In this document: positions 26,860 to 50,166 of the stretch, piece after piece | How positions within the stretch are numbered: the stretch's first letter is position 1 | Layout of the letters: each line of letters starts with the position of its first letter | Assembly (NCBI GenBank): GCA_014284505.1 | Contig: JAAFYY010000001.1 | Coordinates: forward strand, 6,993,845-7,057,844 | DNA length: 64,000 nt | DNA from: Streptacidiphilus sp. 4-A2 | Lineage (GTDB): Bacteria; Actinomycetota; Actinomycetes; Streptomycetales; Streptomycetaceae | Reading direction: 5' to 3' | Notes under the pieces: model-generated | The model's input: the letters and a program-made list of their open reading frames with translations, nothing else | Database searches by the model: none | What the model was told of the DNA's origin: nothing | Position numbers and translations under genes: made by a program

Positions 26860-26932
26860 GGGCCGCTAGCTCAATTGGCAGAGCTGCGGACTTTTAATCC
26901 GTAGGTTGTGGGTTCGAGCCCCACGCGGCCCA
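26860..26932 (+). tRNA. tRNA-Lys (TTT)
   Basis: 73 nt. Acceptor GGGCCGC / GCGGCCC, discriminator A, anticodon loop CTTTTAA, T-arm GTGGG-TTCGAGC-CCCAC. The accessory region begins directly behind it. Confidence 0.96.
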
Positions 26933-26966
26933 CCGCCATCAGCCCATTGCCATGAGCCCACCGTCA

Positions 26967-27682: not shown

Positions 27683-28068
27683 ATGTCGGAGATCCAGGCG
27701 ACCTGAAGTTCGTCAAGACGGGCGAGTGGGTGCGAGTGGAACAGGACGGCACTGCGACGGTCGGTCTCAGTGATCGCGCGCAAGCTTCGCTGGGCGATGT
27801 CGTGTACGTGGATCTGCCCAAGGTTGGCGACTCTGTCCAGGCGGCCAGCAGCTCCGCGGTGGTGGAGTCGGCGAAGGGGGCGCAGGATGTCTACGCGCCG
27901 GTCAGCGGCGGGGTGACTGCCGTAAACGATGTGCTGGCCGACGCGCCAGAGGCGATCAACGAAGACCCCTACGGCGAGGGGTGGATCTTCAAACTCACGC
28001 TCTCCGACAAGTCCGAGCTTGACCAGCTCCTCAGCCCGGAGGACTACGCCAAGGCCGTCGAAAGCTAG
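27683..28068 (+). CDS. GcvH-like lipoyl-carrier protein
   Basis: About 128 residues resembling glycine cleavage H protein: LKFVKTGEWVRVEQDGTATV, GLSDRAQASLGDVVYVDLP, then VVESAKGAQDVYAPVSGGV, where the Lys of ESAKGA is the expected lipoylation site, and INEDPYGEGWIFKL. Start ATG 27683 after GAAGGGGA; one base lost near 27703. No gcvP, gcvT or lipoate ligase is near, so its partner is unknown. It may be a solitary lipoyl carrier with another role, or a chromosomal gcvH paralogue carried by the island. Confidence 0.85.
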
Positions 28069-28317: not shown

Positions 28318-28731
28318 TCACCGGCTCTGGAAAGTGATGGTGAACTGCGCTCCACCATCTTCGGTGAGCTTGCAATTCTGTGGGAAGCCCTCGGTCTGAC
28401 GGGTGGCGATCGTCGTCTGCGAGTCGTCGGTCCAGTGCAGGTACAGGACTCCATTGGCCAGCGTCTGCCCAGGCCACGCGGTTTCCTTCACCGAGACCTG
28501 GCAAGCCACTTCCTGGGTGCCCGGGGGCCCCGCAAGGTCGATGTCCACGTAGCCGGCGCCGGATGTGGCCTCCACCGGCGGGAACATATACGGGATGAAG
28601 GTGAGGATGTAGGTCCCGCTGACCTGGGTGAGGAGTTGGACTTGCGCTGCTATGAGGGTCTCCTTTACGGGTGACGACGACCGGAGTCGATCATGTCGCG
28701 GGAAATACCCGCGCATGACAAAGTCACTCAA
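28318..28731 (-). CDS. Hypothetical protein of the island
   Basis: About 137 residues, no family recognised. One hydrophobic, beta-rich segment (GTYILTFIPYMFPPVEA) and a C-terminal part with two Cys (VACQVSVKET, FPQNCKLTEDGGAQFTITF) suggest a small extracytoplasmic or Ig-like fold, but there is no clear signal peptide. The start is unsure: ATG 28731 or ATG 28716. Codon use is normal for the region. A hairpin at about 28233-28280 follows. Confidence 0.45.
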   Translation of the reverse strand: MSDFVMRGYFPRHDRLRSSSPVKETLIAAQVQLLTQVSGTYILTFIPYMFPPVEATSGAGYVDIDLAGPPGTQEVACQVSVKETAWPGQTLANGVLYLHWTDDSQTTIATRQTEGFPQNCKLTEDGGAQFTITFQSR

Positions 28732-28912: not shown

Positions 28913-29222
28913 CTAGGGCCTGCGGAACTCCTCAATGGGACGCCAGGGCTCCGGCGCAGCTGGCAGTGCACCGAACGCGGGCAGCGGTACGGCCACGGCG
29001 GACGCCACAGGATCAACAGCCCCTGCGGCCTCCGCGTAGCTGTCGGCAACGGCAGCAGGCGTCCACTGGTGGCCGTCCCACTCCAGCACCGCGCGGGACA
29101 TCGGGGTCGAGGTGCGCGCCGCGCGGCCGCCCGTCGCCGAGCGGCACGGCCTTGCGCTGGCCGACCGGGCGCCGTCGGGCGTCCCGCCGCTGCGCCCACT
29201 GCTCCAACGGCTCGTCATCCAT
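28913..29222 (-). CDS. Small hydrophilic protein, DUF6087-like, end of the graspetide operon
   Basis: About 103 residues: MDDEPLEQWAQRRDARRRPV, GQRKAVPLGDG, then in the next frame AVLEWDGHQWTPAAVADSYAEA and a Pro-rich end PEPWRPIEEFRRP. This layout (DDEPL..WA.RR, ..LEWDGHQW..) fits DUF6087, small actinomycete proteins of unknown role that I recall near RiPP and other accessory genes; the assignment is from memory. One indel near 29095. It follows the methyltransferase gene by 69 bases and is probably co-transcribed. Confidence 0.55.
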
Positions 29223-29291
29223 GGCTGCTTCCCCTCCGGTCGGCCCTCTCCAGTGTGCCGCGGGCCAGCCTCTGCGGGGAGTCTGCTCAAT

Positions 29292-30431
29292 TCAGAGGGT
29301 GGCCGTCCAGCCGCCTCGGGACAGGCGTGCGGTCCCGTCCGGGTCGATGGTGACGCGGGCCCCGTAGACGGGCAACTCGCCCTCGCGCAGCCAGCGTGCC
29401 CGGATCGCGTCCAGTTCATCCCACAGGCGGCGTGGGCCGCTCTGGTGCACGGTCGTCCCGCCGCCGTCGCCGGGGCTGTGGGCGCGCGACCAGGAGCCGT
29501 CAGGGTGCAGCATCCACGCTGTCCTGGTGCCGTCGTCCCGGTAGCCCATGCGGTGCTCGATCCCCGGGACGGTGATGGTCAGCATGGACCACACCTCCCA
29601 CGCCTGGTGGACGTCGAGGACCGGGTACGGGCTGCTGGTGACGCTGTCGCCGTCGCCGTCGCGGGCCAGGGCGAACAGGTCGCCGAGCGAGGGCGGGTAG
29701 TCCTCGCCGGTGCGCGTGGTCATGAACGACGCCCGTTCCCATTCGACCCGGCCGACCGCACCGCCGTCGGCGGTCTTGTCGGCGGTGATGACTATGCCGG
29801 TGCTCGCGATGGTGGTCACCAGGCGTCCGCCGGGCCGCAGCGCCTTGAGCCACGACGGGGATGGCGGGCATGGAGACCATGGACACGATGCGGTCGAAGT
29901 CGCCGAGCAGGCCCAGTGCGTCTCCGCTGGCGTCGCCGGTCGCGGCCTTCGGGTGCAAGCCGATGCGGTCCAGGCGCTCGACCGCCGCGCCGGTCAGGTA
30001 GGGGTCCACGTCCAGGGTGGTGACGTTGCGGTCGCCAAGGCGCCGGCAGGCCAGGGCCGCGCTGTAGCCGGAGCCGGTGGCGACGTCCAGGACCCGGGCG
30101 CCGTCGGTGATCCGGGCGTGCCGCAGCATCTGCACGACCAGGCCGGGCAGCGTGGACGACGACGTGGGCACGCCGGTCACCAGGGTGCCGTCGGTGGCGT
30201 GGTCGGCGTGCAGGGGGCCCACCCGGGTGACCAGGGTGGTGTCACGGTAGGCGGCGTCCAGCCAAGCCGCCGGGTCGGTGGGGCCGTCGTTGACGGTCCA
30301 CCCGTCCGGGGTGGAGGTGTACCAGCGCGGCACGAACAGGTGACGCGGGACGCTGCACACCGGCCCGTACCAGCCGGACGCGGGAAGGCGGCGGTGTCGG
30401 CCAGGGCGGCGGCGCGGGGCTGCCAGTCCAT
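29292..30431 (-). CDS. PIMT-like O-methyltransferase of an ATP-grasp peptide (graspetide) system
   Basis: About 380 residues. N-terminal SAM-dependent methyltransferase of protein-isoaspartyl methyltransferase (PIMT) type: CSVPRHLFVPRWYTSTPDGW, GTLVTGVPTSSSTLPGLVVQ (the PIMT 'S-SS-P' substrate loop), motif I VLDVATGSGYSAALA, motif II TLDVDPYLTGAA, DFDRIVSMVS. An extra C-terminal domain of about 170 residues (WEVWSMLTITVPGIEHRMGY, LDAIRARWLREGELPVYGA) is typical for the methyltransferases of such clusters. In fuscimiditide biosynthesis the homologue methylates an Asp of the ester-crosslinked peptide, giving an aspartimide. Breaks near 30385 and 29860. ATG overlaps the ligase stop as TGATG. Confidence 0.87.
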
Positions 30432-31398
30432 CAGGGCATCACTCCTTGAAGAAGGTCGTCGGCGATAGCTTGGGCGATCGGCTGACCGGTCGCGGCGGCA
30501 ATCCAGTCCCACTGCCCGCACGGGTTCACCTCCAGGAACAGGTGTTCGCCTGTGGGGTGACCACCAGATCGGCCGCGCCGTACCGCAGGCCGAGGCGGTC
30601 CATCAGCCGCAGCATCCCGGCAGCCACCTCGGCGGGGACGGTGGTGGGTTCGTAGGTCAAAGAGCCGTAGTCGGCACGCCAGTCCTCGTGCGCCGCGATG
30701 CTCCCGGCGTGGACAGCGGCGGCGAACAGCTGGCTGCCCACGACGGTCAGCCGGATCTCGTGGGCCTTCGGTATCCATGCCTGGAACAGGTGCGCGGTCG
30801 TTTCGATACCGTCCAGGTCGTCCAGGTCGCCGGGCCGCAGGGCGGGTGTAGACGGTCTTGAGCTGGTCGTCCTCGATCAGGACCGGAGACGCGACTGGCT
30901 TGCAGACGACCGGCCCGGGTATCTCGGCGGCGAACTCACGCACGCGTCGGGGCGGTTGGTGATCAGGGTAGGCGGGATCGCCAGGCCGCAGGCGCGGGCT
31001 GCGGCGAGCTGGACCGGTTTGTACTCGGCGCGGGCGGCGGCGGTCGGGTGGTTCATCCACCGGCACTCCAGGGCGGAGAGCACGCCCCCGAGGCCGGCGC
31101 GGGCCTGCGCGGCAGCGAACAGCTGCTCGGGCCCGGACATGCCCTCGGGCAGGCAGAACGCCCCGGGGGCGCGGTAGTACACCGCGCCGACCCGGGACAA
31201 GTCCACCGACCGCCACGCGGTCGCCAGCGTGCCCGCCCACCCGTGGTCCTGGTCGATTCGGCCGGCCATCGCGAGTTGCTGCGGGAAGCCTGCCGTGTCC
31301 AGGCGGAACACCTCCGCGCCCCGGCCGGTCAGCTCGGTCACGACGCGGTCGGTCGGCCAGTCGTCCTGTGCGGCGATGACCAGGATGGGCGCGGCCAT
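30431..31398 (-). CDS. ATP-grasp ribosomal peptide maturase (graspetide ligase)
   Basis: About 322 residues, MvdC/MvdD-type ATP-grasp. N-terminal MAAPILVIAAQDDWPTDRVV, EVFRLDTAGFPQ, then VGAVYYRAPGAFCLPEG and CRWMNHPTAAARAEYKPVQL; ATP-binding part GPVVCKPVASPVLIED, QAWIPKAHEIRLTVVGSQLF, and the Mg2+ site GEHLFLEVNPCGQWDWIAAA near the C-terminus. It should form side-chain ester (or amide) bonds between Thr/Ser and Asp/Glu of the precursor. Breaks near 30950, 30845 and 30550. TGATG overlaps at both ends couple it to precursor and methyltransferase. Confidence 0.9.
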
Positions 31399-31693
31399 CA
31401 GTCCTTCGGCCCTCGTCCAGCGGCGGCGGGTTGGTGGTCGACCCGTCCGGGATGGTCGGGCTGTGGGTGTTGGCCATGCACGTCAGCAGGCCGCCGTCGT
31501 GGGACAGGTTCACCTGCCGCTCGGGGTCGTAGAACGACGGCGGGATGCGCACGGCTCCGGTGGAGTCGGGTACGCGGGCGAACCGCAGCGCCCACGGCCG
31601 TGTCTGCGACCCCGTCGGCCTCTCGGCGCTGTGCGGCACTCGGCCACCGGGCGACGTCAGCGGGAACGCCTCCCGGTCGATGGCTGTGGTCAT
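31398..31693 (-). CDS. Graspetide precursor peptide
   Basis: About 98 residues after restoring one base near 31407. Leader contains the motif RPWALRFAR (residues 32-40), matching the PWGLR-type recognition sequence of ATP-grasp-modified RiPPs, followed by IPPSFYDPERQVNLSHDGG. The C-terminal core runs THSPTIPDGSTTN then PPPLDEGPKD: Thr76, Ser78, Thr80, Ser85, Thr86, Thr87 as ester donors, Asp93, Glu94, Asp98 as acceptors, and Asp83-Gly84 as probable aspartimide site. As sequenced, a lost G (run 'cggccc', about 31408) fuses the end to the ligase frame; with it restored the peptide ends GPKD-TGA overlapping the ligase ATG. Start ATG 31693 follows GGGAGA. Confidence 0.85.
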
Positions 31694-31723
31694 GTTCGTG
31701 TCTCCCTTGAGGTGATGGACTCG

Positions 31724-31760
31724 TTCTGCCCGCCCGGCGCAGGCGGGGCGGGCAGAACGG
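31724..31760 (-). promoter_or_regulatory. Strong hairpin just before the precursor gene
   Basis: GTTCTGCCCGCC / GGCGGGCAGAAC with a short loop, ending about 25 bases before the precursor ribosome-binding site. No T-run follows, so it is more likely an RNA-processing, stability or attenuation signal that sets precursor level apart from the upstream small genes. Confidence 0.6.
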
Positions 31761-31859
31761 ATGGGGTGTGGCGGCCTGGTCGAGCCCGGCCCCCACGTCC
31801 GCACGGATCGCCGGACGGAGTTCGAGGGTGATGCGGAACACCGGTGGCGGTGTCCGGAC

Positions 31860-31964
31860 TCACCGGGTGACGCGTCGGGCCGTGAACCAGCCGGACGTCA
31901 GGAGCGCGACGCCGTCCGGGACCAGCACGGCCGCGGTAAGGGGGATGCCCTCGGCGGCGGTCAC
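31860..31964 (-). CDS. 34-aa ORF upstream of the graspetide precursor
   Basis: GTG 31964 overlaps the previous stop (GTGA). Peptide: VTAAEGIPLTAAVLVPDGVA then LLTSGWFTARRVTR. It is hydrophobic and ends basic. Real translation is suggested only by the overlap. Confidence 0.4.
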   Translation of the reverse strand: MTAAEGIPLTAAVLVPDGVALLTSGWFTARRVTR

Positions 31965-32149
31965 GCGAGCGCCCGGCCGTAGGGCCGGACGCGGCTCTTC
32001 GGGGGCTTCAGGTCGCAGTTGGGGCACAGGATGACGGTGTAGCCGGGCCCGGAGGACTGGTCGACGTGTCCCAGGATCCGGCCGGCCACGGTGGTGCGGC
32101 CGCAGTCGCAGCAGAAGCCGGCGCCGTACTCCGGCGTGGTGCCGGTCAC
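31961..32149 (-). CDS. 62-aa protein with two cysteine pairs (zinc ribbon-like)
   Basis: GTG 32149 overlaps the upstream stop as GTGA. Sequence elements GFCCDCGRTTVAG and VILCPNCDLKPPKSR give CxxC...CxxC, a likely zinc knuckle, with ILGHVDQSSGPGYTV between. Third in a chain of four small overlapping genes that lead into the graspetide precursor. Function unknown; a regulator or accessory binding protein is possible. Confidence 0.6.
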   Translation of the reverse strand: MTGTTPEYGAGFCCDCGRTTVAGRILGHVDQSSGPGYTVILCPNCDLKPPKSRVRPYGRALA

Positions 32150-32366
32150 GGCAGGAGGTTCAGCTGCCGGGCCACGGTGGCCAGCAGTTCGTCGAGGAGC
32201 CGGCGCAGGCAGTCGTCGTGGCTGAGGCCGATCAGCGGCGAGGCCGGTCGCCCGCAGCGCCGCGCGACGGGCTGCCGGCCAGTTCCGCAGTAGTCACAGG
32301 TCGTTCTCGCGGATCGCTCACGTCCCCCTCGGTGGTGAGGTCGTCGATGATCGCCAGGGTGTTCAT
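32146..32366 (-). CDS. 73-aa protein with CxxC motif
   Basis: ATG 32366 overlaps the stop of the preceding gene (TGATG); it ends in GTGA on the next gene. MNTLAIIDDLTTEGDVSDPR is followed, after one lost C near 32303, by CDYCGTGRQPVARRCGRP and a helix LSHDDCLRRLLDELLATVAR. Four to five Cys suggest metal binding. Unknown family. Confidence 0.55.
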
Positions 32367-32557
32367 CAGGCTGGCCCCAGCGCCCCGGCCATCAGCGCCA
32401 GCCCGGTGACCTCGGTGCCGACCATGTCCAGATCGGCCACCCGCTCCAGGTCGTTCCGGGCGATCCGCAGCCGGAACTCCTGCTGGGCGGTCAGGATGCG
32501 TAACCGGTCCCCGGCTTCGGCCAGCCGCAGAGGGGAGGAATCCGCAGAATCTGCCAT
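32366..32557 (-). CDS. 63-aa helical protein, first of the small-gene chain
   Basis: MADSADSSPLRLAEAGDRLR followed by ILTAQQEFRLRIARNDLERV and a hydrophobic end; predicted all-helical. Its stop overlaps the next ATG. ATG 32557 chosen; there is no strong ribosome-binding site, and the region before it ('ctctcttctctagcg') may hold the operon promoter. Confidence 0.5.
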   Translation of the reverse strand: MADSADSSPLRLAEAGDRLRILTAQQEFRLRIARNDLERVADLDMVGTEVTGLALMAGALGPA

Positions 32558-32618: not shown

Positions 32619-33469
32619 TCACCCAGCGCCTGGATCGCCGCCCCGATCATCCGCCGCATTGCCCCCGTACATAGCCAGCGCGGCCAGGTCGACGAACGAC
32701 TGGGCGTACATCGCGACCTCTTGCGGCCGGGTGACAGTCAGGTGCGCCGAGACCAGTTCTACGTTCGCCTGCTGATCGTCGTAGAGCGTGAAGGACTCCA
32801 CCGGCCAGCCGGTCCCACGCTGGACACCCATCGGGATGACGCCCAGGCTGACCGACGGCAGCAGCGCTACCTGGACCAGGTGGGCGAGCTGCGCGCCCAT
32901 GATGTTGATGTCCCGATCACGGTCCGAAGGACCCATTCCTCTACAAGGAACGCGAACCGGTGCTCCGGTGAGCGCAGGATCTGCTGCCGGGCCATCCGCA
33001 CCGCGACGGCTTCGGCGACGTCGTCCTGCACATCGCGCAGGGACACGATGGTGCTCAGCACCGCGGTGCTGTACGCCTCGGTCTGTAGCAGACCCGGGAT
33101 CACCCACGACTGGTACATGCGGAACCTGCGGGTGCGGTCGAACAGGGGCCTCACGCTCTCCTGCGCGGCCTTCAGCCCGGCCCGCTCCATGCGTCGCCAT
33201 TCGACGTACATGCCGTCGATCCCTCGGGCGGTGGCTATCAGATCGTCTGCCTGGTCCTGTGCATCACAGTGGACGGTCCAGGCGCGCAGGTCGGCGTCCG
33301 AGGGCGGCGTGCGGCCGTGCTCGATCCGGGAGCACTTGGATTCGTGCCAGCCGCACCGCGCGGCCAGCGCCCGCGCGGTCAGCCCCGAGTCGAGGCGGAT
33401 CTCGCGCAGGCGCTGGCCAAGCCCCTGCCGGGCCTGCTCAACGGTGGACGCCGCCGGCGTGGAAGCCAT
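32619..33469 (-). CDS. XRE-family regulator with DUF5753 domain
   Basis: About 283 residues. N-terminal HTH: QRLREIRLDSGLTARALAAR then CGWHESKCSRIEHGRTPPSD; C-terminal DUF5753 (RRFRMYQSWVIPGLLQTEAY, FLVEEWVLRTVIG, VSLGVIPMGVQRGTGWPVES). This architecture is very common in streptomycetes, typically beside a small partner gene. One break near 32915. End not certain (ends MYGGNAADDRGGDPGAG). Directly upstream of the graspetide small genes and a candidate regulator of them. Confidence 0.87.
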
Positions 33470-33484
33470 GGTCTCGACCGTCGA

Positions 33485-34002
33485 CTACGCGGGCCGGTAG
33501 TCGGCGTGGTCGATGCCGCGCTCCCACACCGACTCGAACGCCGAGGCGCACAGCTTCACGACCTCGGATGCGGTCGTGACCTCCTCGGTGACGAAGTCCC
33601 CGTTGCCGCTGAAGTGGTGGATCATGACGACCTTGTCGTCGATCGCCCAGAAGTCATTGGCCGGCAGCGGGATGCCGTCAGCCCGGCTGCGCGGTAGCCA
33701 GCGGACTCGCTCGCCAGCGGCGACGTTCGTGAACGTGACGTCGTACTCGAAGCGGATGTACTCGCTGACCGGCTCGGAGACGATGCGGGCCCGCCGGACG
33801 TCGATGCCCCGGGCCGTCGTGTCCGCCATGGTCTGGAGCCAAGGCCGCCACCACGATGCCCGGTCGCAGGGTCGTCACGGTGTCCCGCCCGCCAGGCGGC
33901 CAGGAGTGGATCATCGAGCATGTAGCCGTCGCGCATTTCGAGATGCACCGCTGACCGCTCGCAGTTCCGCAGCAGGTACTCAAGCGTCGGGCGTGCCGGC
34001 AC
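33485..34002 (-). CDS. DUF6879-family protein
   Basis: About 172 residues: PARPTLEYLLRNCERSAVHL, EMRDGYMLDDPLLAAWRAG, then ARIVSEPVSEYIRFEYDVTF, WLPRSRADGIPLPANDFWAI and VVMIHHFSGNGDFVTEE. These match DUF6879, a family typically encoded beside HTH regulators with DUF5753-like domains in streptomycetes; the pair may work as a signalling or toxin/antitoxin-like unit. One base lost near 33845. GTG 34002 start lies within the end of the upstream gene. Stop is 15 bases before the XRE gene. Confidence 0.75.
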
Positions 34003-34204
34003 CGCTGACCTCCGGGAAGAACTGCATCATGCGCGGGAACTCGATCACGTCTTCGTGGGCGGGGAGGTCAAGCTGATCGCGCCTCTCGGAGTCCGTGACC
34101 TTCCACCCCTGGAGCACGTAGTTGTCGGTCACGTCGTCGTAGTAGACGGTCGGGGACTTACCGTCGGGGCTCTCGGGGTCCTTGCCGAGCTTGTGGAGTG
34201 CCAT
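33980..34204 (-). CDS. Small acidic protein in the HTH/DUF6879 unit
   Basis: 74 residues, MALHKLGKDPESPDGKSPTV, YYDDVTDNYVLQGWKV, then PAHEDVIEFPRMMQFFPEV. It overlaps the DUF6879 start by about 22 bases, so it belongs to the same operon. No cysteine or membrane segment; the role may resemble that of DUF397-type small partners. Good AGGAGG-like site upstream (34209-34217). Confidence 0.65.
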   Translation of the reverse strand: MALHKLGKDPESPDGKSPTVYYDDVTDNYVLQGWKVTDSERRDQLDLPAHEDVIEFPRMMQFFPEVSGAGTPDA

Positions 34205-34362
34205 AGCCGTGCCTCCTCGGTCGGGGAAGGTGCTGTGACCGAGCTTGCACGCTCCGCTGTCGCCACCGCTATCGGTATGCGCGAACTTGCACGAAGTCCG
34301 GGGCACCGACGGACGCAGATGCCCCGCACTGGTGGAGTACGGGGCATCCGAGGGACTGTGGG

Positions 34363-35867: not shown

Positions 35868-36464
35868 ATGACGGACACGGGATCGCCCTGGGAGAGATGG
35901 CTACGATGGCTCGGGGAGTCAAACCCGGATACGCCGGCTCTCATCGTGGCCACCCTCTTTGTCACTCTGTTCTCCGTTGTCGTCGCCGCCATAGTCAGCG
36001 ACGTGATCTTTGCCCTCTCCCTCCCGGGAGGCATAGAAATCGCTGATGGCATCCAGACGACTCTGACCTTCGGACCGACCGCACTTGCTGTCTTCTCGGT
36101 CTCAAAGTCCCGCAAGTACCGTGCACCGGCGGCATCGAGCGCCTTGGAGGCTCTTGCAGCAGCCACTACGCGACTCCAGGAGGCGCTGACCGAGTCCAAT
36201 CGGCTCTCGGAGCAGGTGAGCGCAGAGATCGAAGCCAAGAGCGCAGCACTGGAGCGGGCCCGGGCAGAAGCAGAGCAGTGGGAGAACTTGGCGAGCCTCA
36301 ATGCAAAGGAGGCCGCCGCCGTCAGCCGCCTCGTCGAGGCCAGAGTCGAGCATGGTGTACGACATCTTGACCGCGTGGGATGGCTAATCGGCCTGCTGGG
36401 CTGGGGGGTAGCCGTCCTACTGGCCGTGGTCGGGCCGGACGTTCCTGTTATCCGGCACTGGTAG
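35868..36464 (+). CDS. Membrane protein with central coiled coil
   Basis: 198 residues: MTDTGSPWERWLRWLGE, two N-terminal helices (ALIVATLFVTLFSVVVAAIV, TTLTFGPTALAVFSVS), a heptad-rich coiled coil of about 80 residues (LAAATTRLQEALTESNRLSE, AALERARAEAEQWENLASLN), and a C-terminal helix (WLIGLLGWGVAVLLAVVG). Intact. The only plus-strand gene in this part of the element; function unknown. Confidence 0.7.
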   Translation: MTDTGSPWERWLRWLGESNPDTPALIVATLFVTLFSVVVAAIVSDVIFALSLPGGIEIADGIQTTLTFGPTALAVFSVSKSRKYRAPAASSALEALAAATTRLQEALTESNRLSEQVSAEIEAKSAALERARAEAEQWENLASLNAKEAAAVSRLVEARVEHGVRHLDRVGWLIGLLGWGVAVLLAVVGPDVPVIRHW

Positions 36465-36529
36465 GCAAATCGCGCAAATCTCGACCAGCCCCGCCACCGG
36501 GCAGCGCCTCAAGGGCTTCAGCGACCGGC

Positions 36530-37550
36530 CTAGAGCCCGATCCCGCGGATCGGGTTGTCGCGCCACTTCTCGACCGGGCGGATGTACTCCAGCACCTGCG
36601 GGCTGGTCTTGCTCCAGCGGCCGTGCTCGGCGATGAAGCTGGTCGGGTGCCCGGCCTTCGCCGCCTCGGTCGGGGCGCCGGCGCGCAGGCCGTGCGCGGT
36701 GAAGTCTGCGGCGCCGTCCAGGCCCGCTGCGGCGGCGAGCCGCTGCACCGCCTCGTTGACGGCGGCACCGGACAGGCCGCCGTCCTGGAGCCGACCCCAG
36801 CGGTTGATCTGCCGCAGCAGCGGGCCGTCCGTGACGCCCAGCTCGGCCAGGGCGGCCAGCCACGCGCGGACTACCCGGACCGGGTCGGTGTCGGGGTGGA
36901 CGCCGAGCGGCACGTGCACCTCGGCGCCGACCGCGTCCTGATCGGTCTTGCTGGACCGCACCAGAACGGTCAGGCCGTCGTCGGTGAACCGGGACGTCGC
37001 CGATGCGCAGCGCCGCCAGCTCCGAGCGCCTGGCCATCAGCGCGAAGCCGAGCACCAGTAGGACCCGGTCCCGCTTCCCGGTCAGCGTCTCCGGGTCGGT
37101 GGTCTCGATCATGGCGCGCAGCGGGGCGAGGGTGACCGGCGGGGCCTTGCGCTTCCGCTTGCCCTGCTCGGCCCGGTCCCGGCGGTGGACCTTGAGGACC
37201 GCGAGGGCGGCGTCCGTCTCGGGCTGTCCGCGGTGCCCGGCGATCCGGTGGGCGGTGCGGATTGCGGCGATGGCCTGCTCGATCGTGGACGGGGCCCGGT
37301 CGAGGTCGGCCAGGTGGCTGACGTACTCGGCGAGGGTCTGCGGCGTGGCGGGCATCGCGGTGCGGCCGGCGCCGGAGCGCCAGGCGGTGAACTGCTCCCA
37401 CCACCGTGAGTACGCCCGCTTCGTGTTCTCCGGCACCGAGCACTCCAGGCGCCCGCGGGTGCCGTCGGACAGGACGGTGTCCGGGTTGGCGGGTACATAG
37501 TCGACACGTTCGAATGCGGGGCCAGCTCGGCTGCCATGCCTCCAGCCCAA
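36530..37550 (-). CDS. int: Tyrosine recombinase / phage-type integrase
   Basis: About 340 residues. SAM-like N-terminal core-binding domain (NTKRAYSRWWEQFTAWR, YVSHLADLDRAPSTIEQAIA) and catalytic domain: RDRVLLVLGFALMARRSELA (Arg I), the beta-strand Lys region VRSSKTDQDAVGAEVHVPLG, FTAHGLRAGAPTEA (HxLR), EHGRWSKTSPQVLEYIRPV (His/Trp and the nucleophilic Tyr). One break near 36985. It is near the right end of the proposed element, on the minus strand, and should catalyse integration/excision at the att sites. Confidence 0.92.
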
Positions 37551-38732: not shown

Positions 38733-38763
38733 GCCTGGGCTGGGTTCGAGTCCCACCTGGCAC
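38733..38763 (+). pseudogene. tRNA 3'-end fragment (T-arm and acceptor)
   Basis: 'ctgggttcgagtcccac' plus 'ctggcaca' reads as T-stem/loop and 3' acceptor strand of a tRNA; no D-arm or anticodon arm is found upstream. It differs from tRNA-Lys. Its place eight bases before the right 37-bp repeat fits a relic of integration at a tRNA gene. Confidence 0.4.
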
Positions 38764-38770
38764 ACGCATG

Positions 38771-38807
38771 TGAGCCCAGGTCAGAAGCACTGACCTGGGC
38801 TTTCTGC
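38771..38807 (+). repeat. Right copy of the 37-bp direct repeat (putative attR)
   Basis: One mismatch (G for C at the hairpin loop) against 26967-27003. Same hairpin. Confidence 0.7.
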
Positions 38808-38841
38808 CTGCCTGCGGCGGGAGCGGCGGGCCCCGGGGCGG

Positions 38842-42872: not shown

Positions 42873-43067
42873 GCCCGGCTCCCACGCCCGCAGGGGCCCT
42901 TTCTCCGCCCGGAGAACGGGCCCTTCGTGCTGTAGTGGCCAGTGCTGTAGTGCCCCGCGCGCCGGTGCCTTCGCACCCCTGTGCCTTCGAGTCGTACATT
43001 CGGACCAATCCGTCCGGGCAGCGGCGCCGAAGCAATCATGAGCAGTACCAGTCCTCCGGAGGTGTCC

Positions 43068-43652
43068 ATGCACGCGGCCGCGCCAGGCGACCAGACCGTC
43101 AGTCCCGGGGGTGGGGCACTGGAGGGCATGCTCGACCGTGTCTCCCGGGGCGACCAGGCGGCCTTCGAGACCGTCTACGCGACGGTGGCCGCACCCGTCC
43201 TGGGACTGGTCCGCCGACTGGTGCGGGATCCCGCGCAGTCGGAGGAGGTCGCCCAGGAGGTGCTGATCGAGGTGTGGCGCTGCGCCGCCCGCTTCGACCC
43301 GGAGAAGGGCAGTGCCATGGCCTGGATCATGACGATGGCCCACCGCGCGGTGGACCGGATCCGCTCCGCCCAGGCGTCGACCGACCGCGAGCAGCGGGTG
43401 GCCGCCCGGACGCACATGCCGGCCTTCGACGAGGTCAGCGAGCAGGTGGAGCGCCGCCTCGAACGCGAGCAGGTCCGGCGGTGCCTGGCCGCGCTCACCG
43501 AGATCCAGCGGGAGTCGGTCGTGCTCGCCTACTACCGGGGTTACACCTACCAGGAGACCGCCGATCTGCTCGGTGCGGCTCTCGGCACCGTCAAGACCCG
43601 GCTCCGTGACGGACTCATCCGGCTCCGCGACTGCTTGGGGGTGGCCTCGTGA
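43068..43652 (+). CDS. sigK: ECF sigma factor, SigK-like
   Basis: 194 residues from ATG 43068, chosen for the GGAGGTG five bases upstream. Sigma-2: LDRVSRGDQAAFETVYATVA, DPAQSEEVAQEVLIEVWRCA, KGSAMAWIMTMAHRAVDRIR; sigma-4: LTEIQRESVVLAYYRGYTYQ, ETADLLGAALGTVKTRLRDG. GTGA overlap with a zinc-binding anti-sigma gene defines the SigK/RskA class. In mycobacteria that pair answers to redox or envelope stress; the regulon here is unknown. Confidence 0.93.
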   Translation: MHAAAPGDQTVSPGGGALEGMLDRVSRGDQAAFETVYATVAAPVLGLVRRLVRDPAQSEEVAQEVLIEVWRCAARFDPEKGSAMAWIMTMAHRAVDRIRSAQASTDREQRVAARTHMPAFDEVSEQVERRLEREQVRRCLAALTEIQRESVVLAYYRGYTYQETADLLGAALGTVKTRLRDGLIRLRDCLGVAS

Positions 43653-44407
43653 CCGTCGCCGATCTGCACATGCTCACCGGCGCCTATGCCCTGGACGCGC
43701 TCGGCGACCAGGAGGCGGAGGAGTTCTCCCGCCATCTGGCGGCCTGCCCGTCCTGCGCCCAGGAGGTGCGGGAGTTGCGGGAGACCGCGGCCCGGCTGGC
43801 GCTCGCGGCCTCGGAGACCCCCTCGGCCGGATTCCGCGAGCGGGTCATGGCCGCGCTGCCCGAGGTGCGCCAACTACCGCCGCTGGTGCCCGATCCGGCG
43901 GGCCGCGGCGCTCCGGGCGGGACTGTGGCGGCGCCGGGCGCCGCGACTGGCGCTGGCCGCCTGTCTGGCGCTGGCGCTCGGCGCGGCCGGGGTGGCGGTG
44001 GACGCCGAGCAGCAGCTGGCGCAGCAGCGCTCGCGTACGGCGACGGCCGAGCAGCAGGCGCAGGGCCTGGGACGGCTGCTGGCCGCGCCCGATGCCACCT
44101 TCCACAGCGGGCGGCTGGCCGGCGGCGGCAGCAGCACGGTGGTGGCCTCGCTGGACCTGGGCCGGGCGGCCTTCCTCTACCCGGGCTGCCGGCGCTGCCG
44201 GGGGGCAAGGTGTACGAGCTCTGGTACAGCCGGGACGCGGTGATGGTGCCGGGCTGGTCGACTCGGCGCGCCCAACGGGGCGGAGCTGCTGAACGGCTCG
44301 CGGGCGGCGGCCGGGGCGTGACGGTGGAGCCGGCGGGTGGCTCGCCCCGGCCGACGACGGTGCCGATCCTGCTGACGCCGCTGGCCGGCGGGCTGCCGGC
44401 GAGCTGA
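43649..44407 (+). CDS. rskA: Anti-sigma-K factor, RskA-like
   Basis: About 252 residues. Cytosolic zinc-binding anti-sigma domain with H-x3-C-x2-C (SRHLAACPSCAQEVREL), one membrane helix (LALAACLALALGAAGVAV, about 95-112), and an extracytoplasmic RskA domain (GKVYELWYSRDAVMVP, VTVEPAGGSPRPTTVPILL). Breaks near 43905, 44190 and 44270. Should hold the SigK-like factor at the membrane until regulated proteolysis or oxidation. Confidence 0.9.
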   Translation: MTVADLHMLTGAYALDALGDQEAEEFSRHLAACPSCAQEVRELRETAARLALAASETPSAGFRERVMAALPEVRQLPPLVPDPAGRGAPGGTVAAPGAATGAGRLSGAGARRGRGGGGRRAAAGAAALAYGDGRAAGAGPGTAAGRARCHLPQRAAGRRRQQHGGGLAGPGPGGLPLPGLPALPGGKVYELWYSRDAVMVPGWSTRRAQRGGAAERLAGGGRGVTVEPAGGSPRPTTVPILLTPLAGGLPAS

Positions 44408-44444
44408 GCGGCACTCGTTCGGATGGTTCGGTGGATCATGCTTG

Positions 44445-44474
44445 TCGACTGTACATACTAGTAGGTACAGTCGA
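44445..44474. promoter_or_regulatory. 30-bp palindromic operator of the TetR gene
   Basis: 'tcgactgtacatact' and 'agtaggtacagtcga' are inverted copies with one mismatch, ending three bases before the TetR ATG. A classic autoregulatory site; it would also cover the promoter of the downstream operon. Confidence 0.8.
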
Positions 44475-44477
44475 GGT

Positions 44478-45043
44478 ATGAGCACTTCCGAGCGTCTGAT
44501 CGAAAGCACCCAGGAACTGCTCTGGGAGCGCGGATACGTCGGCACCAGCCCCAGGGCCATCCAGCAGCGGGCCGGTGCGGGCCAGGGCAGCATGTACCAC
44601 CACTTCGCGGGCAAGCCCGAGCTGGCCCTGGCTGCCATCCGCCGCAGCGCGGACCAGCGCGTCGCGCTGGCCGAGGAGCAGCTCTCCGCGCCCGGGACGG
44701 CGTTGGAGCGGGTCTCCGCCTTCCTGCGGCGGCAGCGCGAGGTGCTGCGCGGCTGCCCGATCGGCCGGCTCACCCAGGATCCGGAGGTGATCGCGGACGA
44801 CGAGCTGCGGCAGCCCGTCGCCGAAACCTTCGAGCGCCTGCGCGCGCGGCTGGCCGGGGTGCTGGCCGAGGGCCAGGCCAGGGGCGAGCTGGATCCGGCG
44901 CTGGACGTCGTGGCGACGCCGCGACGGTGGCCGCGGTGCTCCAGGGCGGCTATGTCCTGGCCCGGGCCGCCGCCTCGGCCGAGCCCTTCGACCAGGCGGT
45001 CGAGGGCGCGATCGCACTGCTCGCCGCCCGCGCCACCAGCTGA
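44478..45043 (+). CDS. TetR-family regulator
   Basis: About 188 residues. HTH: STQELLWERGYVGTSPRAIQ then QRAGAGQGSMYHHFAGKPEL; C-terminal TetR_C-like part (RQREVLRGCPIGRLTQDPEV, VEGAIALLAARATS). One break near 44925. The 30-bp palindrome directly before its start indicates autoregulation. Likely controls the next three genes. The start may be nearly leaderless. Confidence 0.9.
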
Positions 45044-45137
45044 GCGCCACCGCGTCGCGGCGCGTCCGCGAGTGATCAACGAGATCGGGCCCGCGGGCGG
45101 TCGCGCTCCGCGGGACAGTCCGGGAGGAGCAGCGACC

Positions 45138-45687
45138 ATGCAAGCCATGCAGTACACCATCACCTTGCCCGCCGACTACGACATGGCGGTCATCCGCGAA
45201 CGGGTGCGTGCGCGGGGCATCTGCTCGACGGCTTCGCCGGGCTCGGCTTCAAGGCGTATCTGATCCGGGAACGCGGCGTCGACGGCTCGCCCGTCAACGC
45301 GTACGGGTCGTTCTACCTCTGGCGTGACACCGAGGGGATGAACCGCTTCCTGTGGGCGGCGGCGGATTCGGCGGCATCGTCGCCGACTTCGGCCGCCCGG
45401 CCGTCCACAGCTGGACGGTGGTGCACGAGGCTCCGGGCCCGGAGCGGGCGGCCGCGCCGCTGGTCGCGGTCCGCCGGGTGGAGGCCGTCCCCGAGGGCGC
45501 CGATCTGGCCGAGGCCGTGACTTCGGCCAGGACGGACGCCGAGCACACCGCGCGGCAGCCGGGCGTCCACCGGACCCTGGTCGCGCTCGACCCGCACCGC
45601 TGGGAGCTGGTCCGGTTCACGCTGCGGACCGACTCCCCGGCGCCGGTGCCGGGCGCCGACCACTACCGGATCCTGCACCTCTCCTAA
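45138..45687 (+). CDS. DUF4865-family protein
   Basis: About 183 residues: MQYTITLPADYDMAVIRERV, FAGLGFKAYLIRERGVDGSP, NAYGSFYLWRDTEGMNRFLW, and VTSARTDAEHTARQPGVHRT. These match DUF4865, small proteins with a dimeric alpha/beta-barrel-like fold found next to TetR genes and oxidoreductases. GGAGGAG lies ten bases before ATG 45138. Breaks near 45220 and 45362. Confidence 0.83.
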
Positions 45688-45761
45688 GGCACCTCCGAAG
45701 GCACCTCCGCAGCCGATTCCCAGGCCGGCTCCCAGGCCGATTCCCAAGGCAGGAAAGAACG

Positions 45762-46175
45762 ATGACGCAAGCACCCACCGCGGCACCGCTGACCCAGGCA
45801 CCGCTCGACCGGGCGGCGGGCTACCGCCTGGCCGGCCGGCTCCAGGACGAGCAGGCCCTCCAGGGGCTGCTCGAATCGCTCGACGTGCTGGCCCCGGGCT
45901 TTCCCGACTGGATCGTCACCGCCCTCTTCGGCGGCACCTACCAGCGCGAGGGGCTGACTCTGCGCGACCGGCAGATCGCCAACCTGGCCGCGCTCACCGC
46001 GCTCGGCGGCGTCGAACCGCAGCTCGCCCAGCACGTGGCGGCCGGCCTGCGGGTGGGGATGACCGAGCAGGAGGTGGTGGAGGTGCTGGTGCACCTCGCG
46101 CCCTATGTGGGCGTGCCCAAGGCGCTGGCCGGGCTCCGGGTGGCCGCGCAGGTCCTGGCCGGGGGAGCGGAGTGA
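45762..46175 (+). CDS. Carboxymuconolactone decarboxylase-like (AhpD-type) protein
   Basis: 137 residues, intact. CMD fold: LTLRDRQIANLAALTALGGV, QLAQHVAAGLRVGMTEQEVV, EVLVHLAPYVGVPKALAGLR. The catalytic Cys pair of AhpD is absent, so it is a CMD-like protein perhaps acting on a lactone. Stop overlaps the next GTG. Confidence 0.88.
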   Translation: MTQAPTAAPLTQAPLDRAAGYRLAGRLQDEQALQGLLESLDVLAPGFPDWIVTALFGGTYQREGLTLRDRQIANLAALTALGGVEPQLAQHVAAGLRVGMTEQEVVEVLVHLAPYVGVPKALAGLRVAAQVLAGGAE

Positions 46176-47157
46176 ACGCGGCCCAGGAACCGGCCGTCCG
46201 GACCGTCCTCGGCGACGTCCCACCGGCCGAGCTGGGGATCTGCGACTCCCACGACCACCTGTTCTTCCACAGCGTGAGCTTCCCCGTCGGGCAGGAGCTG
46301 GACGACCCGGACGCGGCGGCCGCCGAACTGAACGCCTTCGCCGCCCTGGGCGGCGGAACCCTGGTCCAGTGGACGCCCTTCGGCCTCGGGCGCGGCTCGG
46401 ACCGGCTGGCGCAGGTCTCCCGCGCCGCCGGGGTGCACCTGGTCGCGGCCACCGGCCTGCACCAGGCGGTGCACTACCCGCCGGAGGTGGTCCGGCGCGC
46501 CCGGGCGGACGGCCTGGCCGGGCTGTTCATCCGGGAACTGACCGAGGGGCTGGCCGACCTGCCCCGCCACAGGCCGGCAGCCGGACGCCGAGGCCGGACG
46601 CTTGGAGGCCGGACGCCCGGTCCGGGCCGGGATGATCAAGGTCGCCGGGTCGTTCCACGTTCTGGACACGCACGCCCGCGAGGTGATGACCGCCGCCGCC
46701 GAGGCCACCACGCCACCGGCGCCCGATCGGCGTCCATCTGGAGCACGGCACCGCCGGGGCGGACGTGCTCGACCTGCTCTGCGACCGGCTCTCGGTCCCC
46801 GCGGAGCGGGTGCTGCTGGGGGAACCGCTTCCCCGATTCGGGCGCGCACCCTCGCCGAACGCGGGCCTATCTCTGCTTCGACGGTCCCTCGCGGGCCAAC
46901 CAGGCCACCGACTGGCGGCTGCCCGAGGCGCTGGCCGCACTGGTGGCGGCGGGCCACAGCACACAGCTGCTGCTCGGCGGGGACACCACCACCGCCCAGG
47001 CCCGGGCGGCCACCGACGGCGGGCCCGGCGTCCCGTACCTGCTGGCGCGGCTGCGCCCGCGGCTGGAGCGGGAGTTGGGCGAGGAGGCGGTGCGGCAGCT
47101 GCTGGTCGCCAACCCGGCGCGGGCGTTCGCGTCCGCTGGGGCGCCCCCGGGCGCTGA
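46172..47157 (+). CDS. Phosphotriesterase/lactonase-family metal hydrolase
   Basis: About 328 residues. Binuclear-metal TIM barrel of the amidohydrolase superfamily: LGICDSHDHLFFHSVSFP (HxH), FIRELTEGLADLP, AGMIKVAGSFHVL, GVHLEHGTAGADVLDLL, LLLGGDTTT, and VANPARAFA at the end. Breaks near 46570, 46710 and 46830, 47130. Together with DUF4865 and the CMD-like protein it probably opens and processes a lactone or ester. Confidence 0.85.
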
Positions 47158-47214
47158 GCGGCGGTCCGGCTGCCGCAGCCGGATTGTCAGTGCCGCCGGT
47201 TAGGCTGCGCGGAC

Positions 47215-47896
47215 ATGGAGACCACCACCGCTGTATGGTCGTTCGCCCTGGTCGTAGGGCTGCTCACGGTCCCCCGGCCTCGATACCGCGCTGATCCTGC
47301 GCACCGCCGCGCTCGGCAGCCGGCGCGAGGCCACCGGGGTCGTCCTTGGCATCCAGGCCGGCACCCTGGTCTGGGGACGCTGAGTTCCCTCGGCGTCAGC
47401 GCGCTGCTGACCGCCTCGCAGACGGCCTACGCCGTGCTGCGGGTGGTCGCGCGGGCTACCTGCTGTGGATGGGCGGGCGGATGCTCTGGGGCACGCTCCG
47501 CCCCAGGCCGATCCCGGCCCGCAGGACGCCCCGGCCGCCGACCCGGAGGCCGCGGTGCGACCACCGCTGTCGGTGCGGGTCGCTTCGGGCAGCGGGGCCG
47601 GGAGCTGCGCCAGGGGCTGCGGCGCGGGCTGACCACCAACCTGCTCAACCCCAAGATGGGCGTGTTCTATGTGGCGGTGCTGCCGCAGTTCATACCGGCG
47701 CACGCGTCACATCTGGGCATGGGCTGCTGCTGACCTGCGTTCATGTGACCGAGGGGCGCTCTGGTCCGGCGTGCTGGTGGCCTTTGCCGGGGTGCTCCGC
47801 GGCTGGCTGCGGCGCCCGGTCGCGCGCCGGGTACTGGACCGGGTGACCGGCACGGTCGTCATCGCCTTCGGCCTGCGGCTGGCCATGGGCGACTGA
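47215..47896 (+). CDS. LysE/RhtB-family exporter
   Basis: About 227 residues with six membrane helices. N-terminal TAVWSFALVVGLLT then PGLDTALILRTAALGSRREA (family motif PGPD..), LGVSALLTASQTAYAVLRVV, LLWMGGRMLWGTLRP, GLRRGLTTNLLNPKMGVFYV (conserved NPK) and TVVIAFGLRLAMG. Four or more breaks between 47275 and 47755. Exports amino acids or homoserine-lactone-like compounds; a link to the upstream lactonase-like operon is possible. Confidence 0.85.
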
Positions 47897-47984
47897 CCGC
47901 CGGACCGCTCGACCGCCGGACCGCTGACCGCTGACCGCTTCGGCGGGTCGATGCCGCCGCCGGACAGCGCCCCGCCGGACAGCG

Positions 47985-48024
47985 ACGCCCCCGCGCGGCC
48001 GGGAGGCGGCTGCGCGGGGGCGGC
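47985..48024. terminator. Bidirectional terminator
   Basis: CGCCCCCGCGC / GCGCGGGGGCG stem between the converging LysE and LCP genes. Confidence 0.75.
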
Positions 48025-48045
48025 GGGACGGCGGCTGTGGGCGGG

Positions 48046-49815
48046 TCAGGGCGCCGAGTTGGGCACGGACGGGCTGGCGGCGTAGGCCTGGATCGGGGTC
48101 ATCCCGACACCGTTCACCGCGACCGTGTCCTGGGTGCTGACCGGCGCGCAGCTGTTGGTCTGGTTGCCGGTCTGGAGGTGGGTGCCGGCCACGGCGACCT
48201 TGGTGTCGGCGGCGGCCGGGGTGGCCTTGCCGCCGGGGAAGGTGGTCCCGCTGGTCCAGTCCTCACCGATGGTCAGGGTCAGCTGCGAGCCGGTGCCCTG
48301 GACCACCGCGGAGCTGGGCAGGCCCAGGCTGGCGGCGACCTGCTTGGCCTGTTCGGCCTGCCCGGCCGGGTAGCTCAGGGTCGTCCTGGCGGCTGCCGAG
48401 GAGGCGTCCCCGGTGCTGCTGTTGCTGCTGTAGCCCTGGTTGACCAGCGCGGCCTCGACCACCCCGGCGCGGCCGGGGACGAGCGGCACCCCGCTGCCGT
48501 TCAGCACCTGCACGGAGATGTCGGCCGCCGGGACGGTGGGCGCGGCCGAGGGCGAGGGAGCGGCGGTCGAGGCGGCGCCGGCCGCGCTGGACTTGCCGCC
48601 GGAGGTGGTCAGCGACTGGTCGTTGATGATCGTGTTGAACAGCGTCTGCGCGCCCGGTCCGACCACCACCCGGTCCGCGTTGTTCGGGTCGGCGACGTTC
48701 TGCATGGTGGTGAAGCTGATCCGGTCCGTCGGCACCTTGTTGAGGTCGTCGGCGAGGCCGATCAGCTTGGGGATGCTGTCCAGGCCGGTGTCGACGGTGA
48801 GCGCCTTGGTCGCCGCGTTGGCCAGGTCCAGCACCGCGAGCGGGTCGGACAGCGTGCCCGCACTCTTCAGCTTGTTGATCATCTGGGTGAGGAAGATGTG
48901 CTGGGCGTAGGTGCGGCCGAGGTCGCTGCCGTCGCCGAAGCCGTGCCGGGTGCGCAGGAACTCCAGTGCCGACAGGCCCTTGAGGGTGTGCGTGCCCTTG
49001 GCGAGCTTGAGGTGCGAGTCCGGGTCGTAGACGTTGTTGCTGACGCAGACGCTGACCCCGCCGACGGCGTCGGACATGTTCACCACGCCGCTGAAGTCGA
49101 CCATGGCGAAGTGGTCGATCGGGATGCCGGTCAGCTGCTCCACGGCCGCCACGGTGCAGCCGGGGCCGTACTGGAGGGTGCTGTTGATCATCCCGACGCC
49201 GCCGCCGAAGCTGGTGCCGTCCTTGGCGTCGGTGCAGCCGGGCAGGTTGGTCTCGGTGTCCCGGGGATGCTCATGACCGTGGCGTTGCTGCGGTCGGCCG
49301 AGAGGTGGACCACCATCTCCACGTCCGCGTTCGCCCCGCCGCCGCCGTCCGCGCAGTCGCCGCCGATCGAGCAGTCCTCGGCGGTGTCGCGGGTGTCCGA
49401 GCCGAGGACCAGGATGTTCAGCGGGGTCCGGCCGAAGGCGTCGGGCTTCTCGGTCAGGGCGGGCTTCTTGCCGTTGTACAGATTGTCCGCAGTGATGTTG
49501 CCGCTGAGGTGCTCGTACTCGTAGAAGGCGCCGCCGACGGCCAGGACCAGGCAGCCGGCCACCGATATCGATATGATTTTCAGTGTCTTTTTGCGCTTGC
49601 CGTTGCGGTTCTTGCGGGCCGAGGCCCGGCCGCCGCCCAGCGCGCTCGCGCCCGGTCCGGAGTCGGGGAGCTCGTCCGCCGGGCCGCCCTTGCGGCCCCG
49701 CCTGGCCGCGGCCCGCCGGTCGCCTTGAGGCCGCTCATGCCCGTACCCCCCGGATGCCCGTCGGCGCCGCACAGGGCAGGCCATGGCCCTCACGGGCCGG
49801 GGAGAACTCGCTCAT
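48046..49815 (-). CDS. LytR-CpsA-Psr (LCP) family glycopolymer transferase
   Basis: About 590 residues. Cytosolic basic N-terminus (SARKNRNGKRKKTLKII), one TM helix (ISVAGCLVLAVGGAFYEY), LCP catalytic domain (NILVLGSDTRDTAEDC, ADVEMVVHLSADRSNATVMS, FAMVDFSGVVNMSDAVGG, ALEFLRTRHGFGDGSDLGRT) and a C-terminal LytR_C domain (ISVQVLNGSGVPLVPGRAGV). Joins wall teichoic-type polymers to peptidoglycan from lipid carriers. Break near 49265. Start uncertain: ATG 49815 (MSEFSPAREG..) needs one extra base in a run of G at 49760; alternatively ATG 49739. Confidence 0.92.
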
Positions 49816-50166
49816 GGTCACATCCTCGGTACGCCGCAGCTCCGAGTATCGGACAGCTGCTCTGGGTCCCACGGGAGCGCAATGTAGCAAGCGATTGTGA
49901 GTCATACATAAAGACAAGGATTTGGTGTACATCCACGCTGGGGTAAGGATCAACTCTGCCACACGTTCGAATGCGTGTGCATCTCGGGGTCGGGAGGGGC
50001 CGCAGAAGGGCGGCGAGAGGCCGCAGAGAGGCCGCGAGGGCGCGCGAGAAGCCGCGATCGGGCCGGGGCCGGTGGGGCCGGTGGGGCCAGAGGGGCCGGA
50101 TCGAACGGGCGAGCGTTGACGGGGCTGCCCGGGGGCACGGAAAATGGTATCGTCCGCAACTTTGCC
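49816..50166. other. Intergenic region between LCP and OpuCA genes
   Basis: No gene. Contains an AT-rich stretch ('gattgtgagtcatacataaa', 49891-49910), probably the LCP promoter, and a purine-rich repetitive tract 49990-50110 ('gaggccgcagagaggccgcg'). Confidence 0.45.

Follow-up and report, generated by a model that had tools for sequence, protein, structure and literature searches.

A probable graspimiditide gene cluster on a presumed integrative element at a tRNA-Lys gene of Streptacidiphilus sp. 4-A2

The locus and its closest described counterparts

Published surveys of the graspimiditides, or group 13 graspetides, count 1326, 962 and 1432 clusters, and the account of the four characterised members describes them all as Thr-Asp linked and gives the esters of known graspimiditides as two to five (PMC13001092). 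Fuscimiditide of Thermobifida fusca (ThfA, ThfB, ThfM) combines a precursor, a single ATP-grasp ligase and a methyltransferase resembling protein isoaspartyl methyltransferase (PIMT) (PMC12291112, PMC13001092), and its esters join Thr3 to Asp22 and Thr7 to Asp18 (PMC12291112). Amycolimiditide, albusimiditide and SsfA(BM) are likewise described as graspimiditides with stem-loop ester ladders and a modified Asp before Gly (PMC13001092). Here, we describe a locus of this kind in a 64,000-nucleotide stretch of Streptacidiphilus sp. 4-A2 (assembly GCA_014284505.1, contig JAAFYY010000001.1, positions 6,993,845 to 7,057,844; "the window", in whose coordinates all positions are given). We think it likely that the locus is a graspimiditide cluster, with the ester and aspartimide chemistry inferred, lying on an element integrated at a tRNA-Lys gene. 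The cluster consists of the following genes:

31398..31693, minus strand: precursor, tgmA type (TIGR04186), with leader PWALRFAR and core THSPTIPDGSTTNPPPLDEG; frame broken shortly before the conserved C-terminus
30431..31398, minus strand: ATP-grasp ligase, tgmB type (TIGR04187); frame-broken, with YYRAP, CKPVASP and EVNPCGQW present in differing frames
29292..30431, minus strand: PIMT-like Asp O-methyltransferase (TIGR04188); frame-broken, with the S-adenosylmethionine stretch LDVATGSGYS and C-terminal WLREGELPVYG
28913..29222, minus strand: DUF6087 protein (PF19565), downstream of the methyltransferase; frame-broken

The assignment is directly supported by the homology of the three core genes, by their order and overlaps, and by a leader and core that are conserved among relatives. 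An initial annotation, made from the sequence alone, had the precursor, ligase and methyltransferase overlapping by TGATG on the minus strand and saw a PWALRFAR motif in the leader. Both are readily found: the overlaps lie at 31400-31396 (precursor and ligase) and 30433-30429 (ligase and methyltransferase), and the motif stands in a precursor that starts at 31693 on the minus strand and reads MTTAIDREAFP...RPWALRFAR...CMANTHSPTIPDGSTTNPPPLDEG as one open frame, its final conserved residues and stop following in another frame that ends at 31398. A search against family models gives the precursor a match to TIGR04186 (48.5 bits; cut-off 25), RPWALRF being a Phh-type leader motif. The ligase pieces match TIGR04187, with 185.8 and 61.4 bits in one search and 292 and 40.1 bits in another, and those of the methyltransferase match TIGR04188 with 167.4 and 70.1 bits over profile positions 22-189 and 214-361 of 363, coverage that takes in the extra C-terminal domain of the PIMT homologue. 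The frames being broken, no single window piece reaches the cut-offs of 350 and 380, respectively; the ligase of the related G005 cluster exceeds its cut-off with 394.2 bits. Pfam domains agree, with MvdD pre-ATP-grasp in the ligase and PCMT in the methyltransferase, and the downstream gene matches PF19565 with 63.6 bits (cut-off 27.1). In a PDB search with the intact ligase orthologue of the related locus L010, the top matches are 5ig9 and 5ig8 ("ATP grasp ligase"; E ~1e-43), which we take to be microviridin ligases, with AMdnB, CdnC and others ranking below. The best PDB match of the precursor, a sperm-tail protein (E 0.0017), we take as chance. No protease or transporter turned up for the cluster, and no search was aimed at either.

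The locus thus has a precursor with a Phh-type leader, an adjacent ATP-grasp ligase of the RiPP-maturase type (RiPP, ribosomally synthesised and post-translationally modified peptide), and a core in which Thr/Ser and Asp/Glu flank a loop Asp-Gly: T76, S78 and T80, then D83-G84, then D93, E94 and D98. All four genes change frame in the window sequence, with sequencing error suspected. The initial annotation was right to see here a graspetide cluster that pairs an ATP-grasp ligase with a methyltransferase of the PIMT type and is akin to those of fuscimiditide and amycolimiditide, as the TIGR04186, TIGR04187 and TIGR04188 matches bear out, but its "imiditide"-type label has to be given up. Imiditides, or type I pamtides, also have a PIMT-like methyltransferase acting on Asp, but are described as RiPPs with aspartimide as the sole modification (PMC13001092), and the presence of the ligase rules this label out in favour of graspimiditide. 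Many long spurious open reading frames (ORFs) overlap in the region, and in a GC-rich genome unrelated ORFs could conceivably be grouped by chance; we consider this explanation practically impossible and treat it as refuted, given that three family models, independent of one another, have their matches in the gene order expected, that the same order is found in relatives picked by their ligase, and that plasmid records publicly annotated with tgmA repeat it.

With four characterised members and surveys of such size, the cluster belongs to a kind already described. "Uncharacterised", as the annotation had it, may still fit the exact peptide, although close relatives exist and are automatically labelled in public records; it does not fit the cluster type, which is very common and whose precursor already goes publicly by the name tgmA. 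The further claim of a core unlike the described examples stands in that Glu is among the candidate acids, set against the four Thr-Asp-linked peptides; it fails in that the core recurs in many relatives. This comparison with published graspimiditides is by description, and we make no claim that the core is absent from published surveys. In the largest precursor cluster of a broader study, 504 of 958 members are reported to match none of 12 published core motifs (PMC8939145). A text search of the available papers for "PPPLDEG" gave no hit, which says little as sequences are usually shown in figures.

Conservation of the core and the predicted product

A scan of GTDB genomes with a window ligase piece gave 22 loci: 16 bear the same core and have ligases 68-84% identical, five bear other precursors and have ligases only 38-54% identical, and in one (L021) no precursor can be read. 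The leader is altered or split in two of the same-core loci (L020 and L023). Altogether, 26 loci provided 23 distinct precursors with the common core T-x3-T-x2-DG-x3-NPPxLDEGxKD, whose positions 1-23 read T-H-[TSN]-P-T-[VI]-P-D-G-x3-N-P-P-[PQ]-L-D-E-G-[PA]-K-D. Position 2 is H in 22 precursors and D in one, and position 3, corresponding to S78, is T in 13, S in nine and N in one, while T1, T5, D8, G9, D18, E19 and D23 are the same in all 23. As the search pattern required T1, P4, T/S5, P7, D8, P15, L17, D18, E19 and D23 and left G9 free, the invariance of the required positions is partly built in; the 16 loci picked by ligase were chosen independently of the core and are the fairer sample of its conservation. 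The core is 88.5% conserved as against 64.4% for the 60 residues before it (13 precursors; of 14 intended, L015 was omitted as its core reads PPQLDEG). We rejected this as a special sign, the contrast being general: two other graspimiditide subgroups are alike (85.2% and 66.0%, n=7; 89.4% and 67.8%, n=5).

Among 394 Streptomycetaceae genomes, the core is found in ten at E < 1e-30, Streptacidiphilus sp. 4-A2 included; 16 genomes pass E 0.001. Twelve Streptomyces plasmid records carry a related precursor, 55-79% identical to that of L010 and in every case annotated as tgmA, "putative ATP-grasp-modified RiPP"; in the five of these clusters that were inspected, tgmA and tgmB are followed by the methyltransferase, directly in three and past one small hypothetical gene in two. 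The precursor had no match among 50,697 phage records. A close counterpart is found on the S. zaomyceticus plasmid NZ_CP107934.1, which shares with the window the gene order, a methyltransferase with WXXXGXLP and a DUF6087 gene after it; its precursor and that of L010 are 75.5% identical. It differs in being a plasmid and in having whole annotated genes, with an integrase and a DUF397/HTH (helix-turn-helix) pair upstream of the cluster and, downstream, a gene for a phage portal protein. Flanked in this way, the four-gene locus (42956-52249) lies on a replicon of 125 kb that is possibly a phage-plasmid. The ligase family as a whole is very common: of 150 Streptomycetaceae genomes, 119 match TIGR04187, and 84 do so above its cut-off. 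The genome of the window itself has four more TIGR04187 places (G000:C4:6586278, C1:64927, C4:6098175 and C4:1583085; L001, L002, L003 and L005); two of them, on C1 and C4, score alike at 381.2 bits and look like duplicates, and one of the four is split between frames.

By analogy with fuscimiditide, the product would most likely have two nested side-chain esters, an outer ring from T76 to D98 and an inner one that closes T80 on either E94 or D93, with D83-G84 as the site of an aspartimide. The residue numbering of the initial annotation is right for T76, S78, T80, D83, D93 and E94, and D98 can be placed by analogy with the relatives. In both peptides, the Thr residues are four apart, the acids are four apart and the loop holds Asp-Gly, with E94 at the spacing of the inner Asp of fuscimiditide (PMC12291112). 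Because this 4/4 spacing corresponds to T76 and T80 with E94 and D98, our first guess is T76-D98 with T80-E94, a ladder that would mirror Thr3-Asp22 and Thr7-Asp18; T80-D93 would rank second as the inner ring, and a third ester from S78 is possible. The likeness has its limits: both fuscimiditide acceptors are Asp, whereas the inner position here is Glu94, beside Asp93, and the loop of the window peptide is longer, T80 being separated from the acid by 12-13 residues compared with 10.

A tricyclic product, with three nested esters T76-D98, S78-E94 and T80-D93, is the less probable arrangement. It would make use of the acids D93, E94 and D98, all unchanged in the 23 precursors (as the search pattern required), and of a Ser or Thr that is present at the S78 position in 22 of these; three esters would also lie within the range of two to five described for known graspimiditides (PMC13001092). 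Yet the precursor of L024 retains all three acids although its residue there is Asn, and S78-E94 with T80-D93 would give spacings of 2 and 1, unlike the 4/4 stem of fuscimiditide. Amycolimiditide is described with four esters and SsfA with five postulated (PMC13001092, PMC10787088), whereas in the relatives of the window only two Thr are invariant, a comparison made by description. With the S78 position not being Ser or Thr in all relatives, two esters are the safest minimum.

In the biosynthesis that we propose for the two-ester product, the ligase would bind the leader through RPWALRF and use ATP to link the core's Thr side chains with those of acidic residues. The methyltransferase would then methylate D83 in the cyclised loop, giving an aspartimide with G84 that may open to isoaspartate; mass changes of +14, -32 and +18 Da are reported for a related cluster (PMC10787088). 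A protease would finally cut off the leader; as of 2025, the native protease was described as undetermined for every graspimiditide (PMC12291112).

Two methyltransferase kinds and the DUF6087 gene

A WXXXGXP motif near the C-terminus is described as common to the PIMTs of graspimiditides, lassimiditides and imiditides, conserved but not class-defining (PMC13001092). An in-frame check of the methyltransferases of 33 loci separates two kinds of cluster with the same core. In the first, which includes the window and L010, the methyltransferases are 63-71% identical to that of L010 and 17 of 19 (L010 counted) have WXXXGXLP, with neither form in L011 or in L023, whose frame is lost and runs on. The second kind (L024, L025, L115, L116, L117 and L121) has methyltransferases 32-36% identical to that of L010, five of six with WXXXGXP and L116 with neither form. 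All four other graspimiditide loci checked (L068, L074, L077 and L084) have WXXXGXP; of the paralogues in the window's own genome, L005 has WXXXGXP, L003 has WXXXGXXP, and L001 and L002 have neither. If these details hold, one core type served by two divergent methyltransferases would be a natural test of the role of the C-terminal motif in RiPP-associated PIMTs.

The small gene downstream recurs in relatives. Of the 22 loci picked by ligase, 12 have a DUF6087 match: in 11 the gene comes directly behind the methyltransferase, whereas in L020 it is on the opposite strand at a distance of ~2.5 kb. It is present in six of the ten core-bearing genomes, that of the window included, and absent from G005, G052, G280 and G367; as annotated, in an incomplete gene table, it is present in one of the five inspected plasmid clusters and absent from four. 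A role as strict partner is therefore rejected. The family in general is found in 132 of 394 genomes, and among its best ten loci one (L066) has a graspetide ligase or methyltransferase within flanks of ~1.5 kb.

A profile of 11 cluster-type sequences nevertheless sets the gene apart: seven full-length places score 118.8-177.4 bits, joined by the split copy of the window genome, and the next score 94.1 and below. Seven of these eight places come after a graspimiditide methyltransferase. The eighth, in G295 (G295:C1:5646000-5654000), stands alone, ~3 kb downstream of relatives of DUF6879 and the HTH-DUF5753 regulator whose order is kept; between these and DUF6087, no ligase, methyltransferase or precursor motif was found in G295, and other small genes stand there instead. 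The cluster-type proteins end in PEPWRPTxxFRRP or similar and the others mostly in GTGRHRKP or similar (alignment A2). DUF6087 is also present in four graspimiditide clusters outside this subgroup (L066, L072, L074 and L077); where the end of the protein is covered, in L066 and L074, the tail is of the ordinary type. The predicted structure has a mean predicted local distance difference test score (pLDDT) of 77 and a predicted template modelling score (pTM) of 0.54, and it matched no PDB entry at E <= 0.001. We found no mention of DUF6087 in the available papers, and the section of a 2026 survey on the neighbours of group 13 does not include it (PMC13097080). DUF6087 may serve some members of the subgroup as a partner or accessory protein and would, if the details hold, pose a second partner-protein question in graspetides.

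One could go further and see a subgroup with rules of its own, in which a Thr-to-Glu inner ester T80-E94 would leave D93 free, the WXXXGXLPVYG methyltransferase would recognise the ring, and a dedicated DUF6087 partner would have exchanged the GRHRKP-type tail for APEPWRPTxxFRRP; we regard this combination as improbable. Two side observations concern the same gene. Its cluster-type tail loosely resembles the precursor leader RPWALRFARxP, and a Membrane_bind family protein (PF14564, 71 bits) adjoins it downstream at 28318-28731 on the minus strand.

Frame breaks and the presumed island

The broken frames may be explained by indel errors in the assembly or by true decay. Over 2.8 kb aligned with L010, the window has gaps of 1, 1, 2, 1, 1, 2, 3, 2 and 2 bases, eight of nine not multiples of three, and L010 has gaps of 1, 3, 6, 3, 3 and 2 bases, two of six not multiples of three. 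The assembly is only 76.5% complete by marker genes despite being in 4 contigs, and split genes are also found beyond the cluster, in a second TIGR04187 gene elsewhere in the genome and in the DUF6879 and integrase genes of the island; an ORF in the helicase region at 24.5-26.6 kb shows a frame change relative to one of three relatives, which is thin evidence. The ratio of nonsynonymous to synonymous substitutions (dN/dS) relative to L010 is ~0.40 for the precursor, ~0.23 for the ligase (149 codons) and ~0.30 for the C-terminal half of the methyltransferase, to be compared with 0.29 for both precursor and ligase in the pair L010-L014. From these values, the genes were under selection. Given the low completeness, the other split genes and this purifying pattern below 1, assembly errors are clearly favoured and most likely account for the frame breaks.

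The alternative, that the cluster has decayed and the element bears a set of pseudogenes making nothing, is in our view unlikely. In its favour, the related genome G021 holds what looks like a true remnant (L112; G021:C1:9049000-9057000), in which the methyltransferase and DUF6087 are still open but the precursor is gone, as is the N-terminal portion of the ligase; L021, too, lacks a readable precursor. Decay would also account for the breaks in the four cluster genes and in the integrase and DUF6879 of the island. It fits poorly, however, with the purifying substitutions in the readable stretches, with the conserved motifs that survive in one frame or another, and with the low marker completeness and split genes beyond the cluster.

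The surroundings of the cluster can be read as an island, with these features:

26860..26934, plus strand: tRNA-Lys, presumed left edge of the island
32619..33469, minus strand: HTH_31-DUF5753 regulator, upstream of the precursor; frame-broken
36417..37550, minus strand: tyrosine recombinase (integrase; PF00589), split between frames
38743..38808, plus strand: probable right edge of the island, a diverged copy of a tRNA 3' half and then the hairpin that also follows tRNA-Lys (34 bp, 97%)

The initial annotation had put the cluster in a mobile or integrative element, and the presence of a tRNA gene, a copy of its 3' part and an internal integrase agrees with this presumption. The 34-base stretch directly after tRNA-Lys recurs with 97% identity at 38771-38804, preceded by a diverged tRNA 3' half, and local alignment of the two edge regions scores 86, compared with a maximum of 59 in up to 400 random stretches of the window. 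The gene to the right of the copy is partly matched in the genus relatives G003 and G009, where this match and that of tRNA-Lys share a strand and lie ~20 and ~37 kb apart, respectively; such distances would be expected with inserts of unequal size at the site. No empty integration site was found among the matches listed for 13 relatives from the genus.

A number of points weigh against a working graspimiditide cluster on such an element. The frame breaks in the four cluster genes, the integrase and DUF6879 have been mentioned; in addition, the indel density of the cluster is apparently above that of the single housekeeping (helicase) stretch compared, a comparison muddied by low-complexity sequence. 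The methyltransferase has WLREGELPVYG in place of an exact WXXXGXP, and the ring connectivity is by analogy only, the product being predicted from its genes. The integrase match to PF00589 is weak (20.6 bits, E 0.0004; cut-off 27.1), and the gene was not among the 15 PF00589 matches of a genome-wide search.

In a test of five proteins encoded upstream of the precursor against 28 loci (E 1e-4), the ORFs at 31961-32149, 32366-32557 and 33980-34306 had no match, a piece of the HTH-DUF5753 regulator was matched in four loci and a piece of DUF6879 in one. The four accompanying small genes of the initial annotation are not confirmed as parts of the system; the upstream ORFs are rarely or never matched, and the downstream one is the recurrent DUF6087. 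DUF397 and DUF5753 proteins are, for their part, reported beside group 13 graspetide clusters in the 2026 survey (PMC13097080). Between tRNA-Lys and the cluster, at 27730-28068 on the plus strand, the presumed island also encodes an H protein of glycine cleavage (PF01597, 131 bits).

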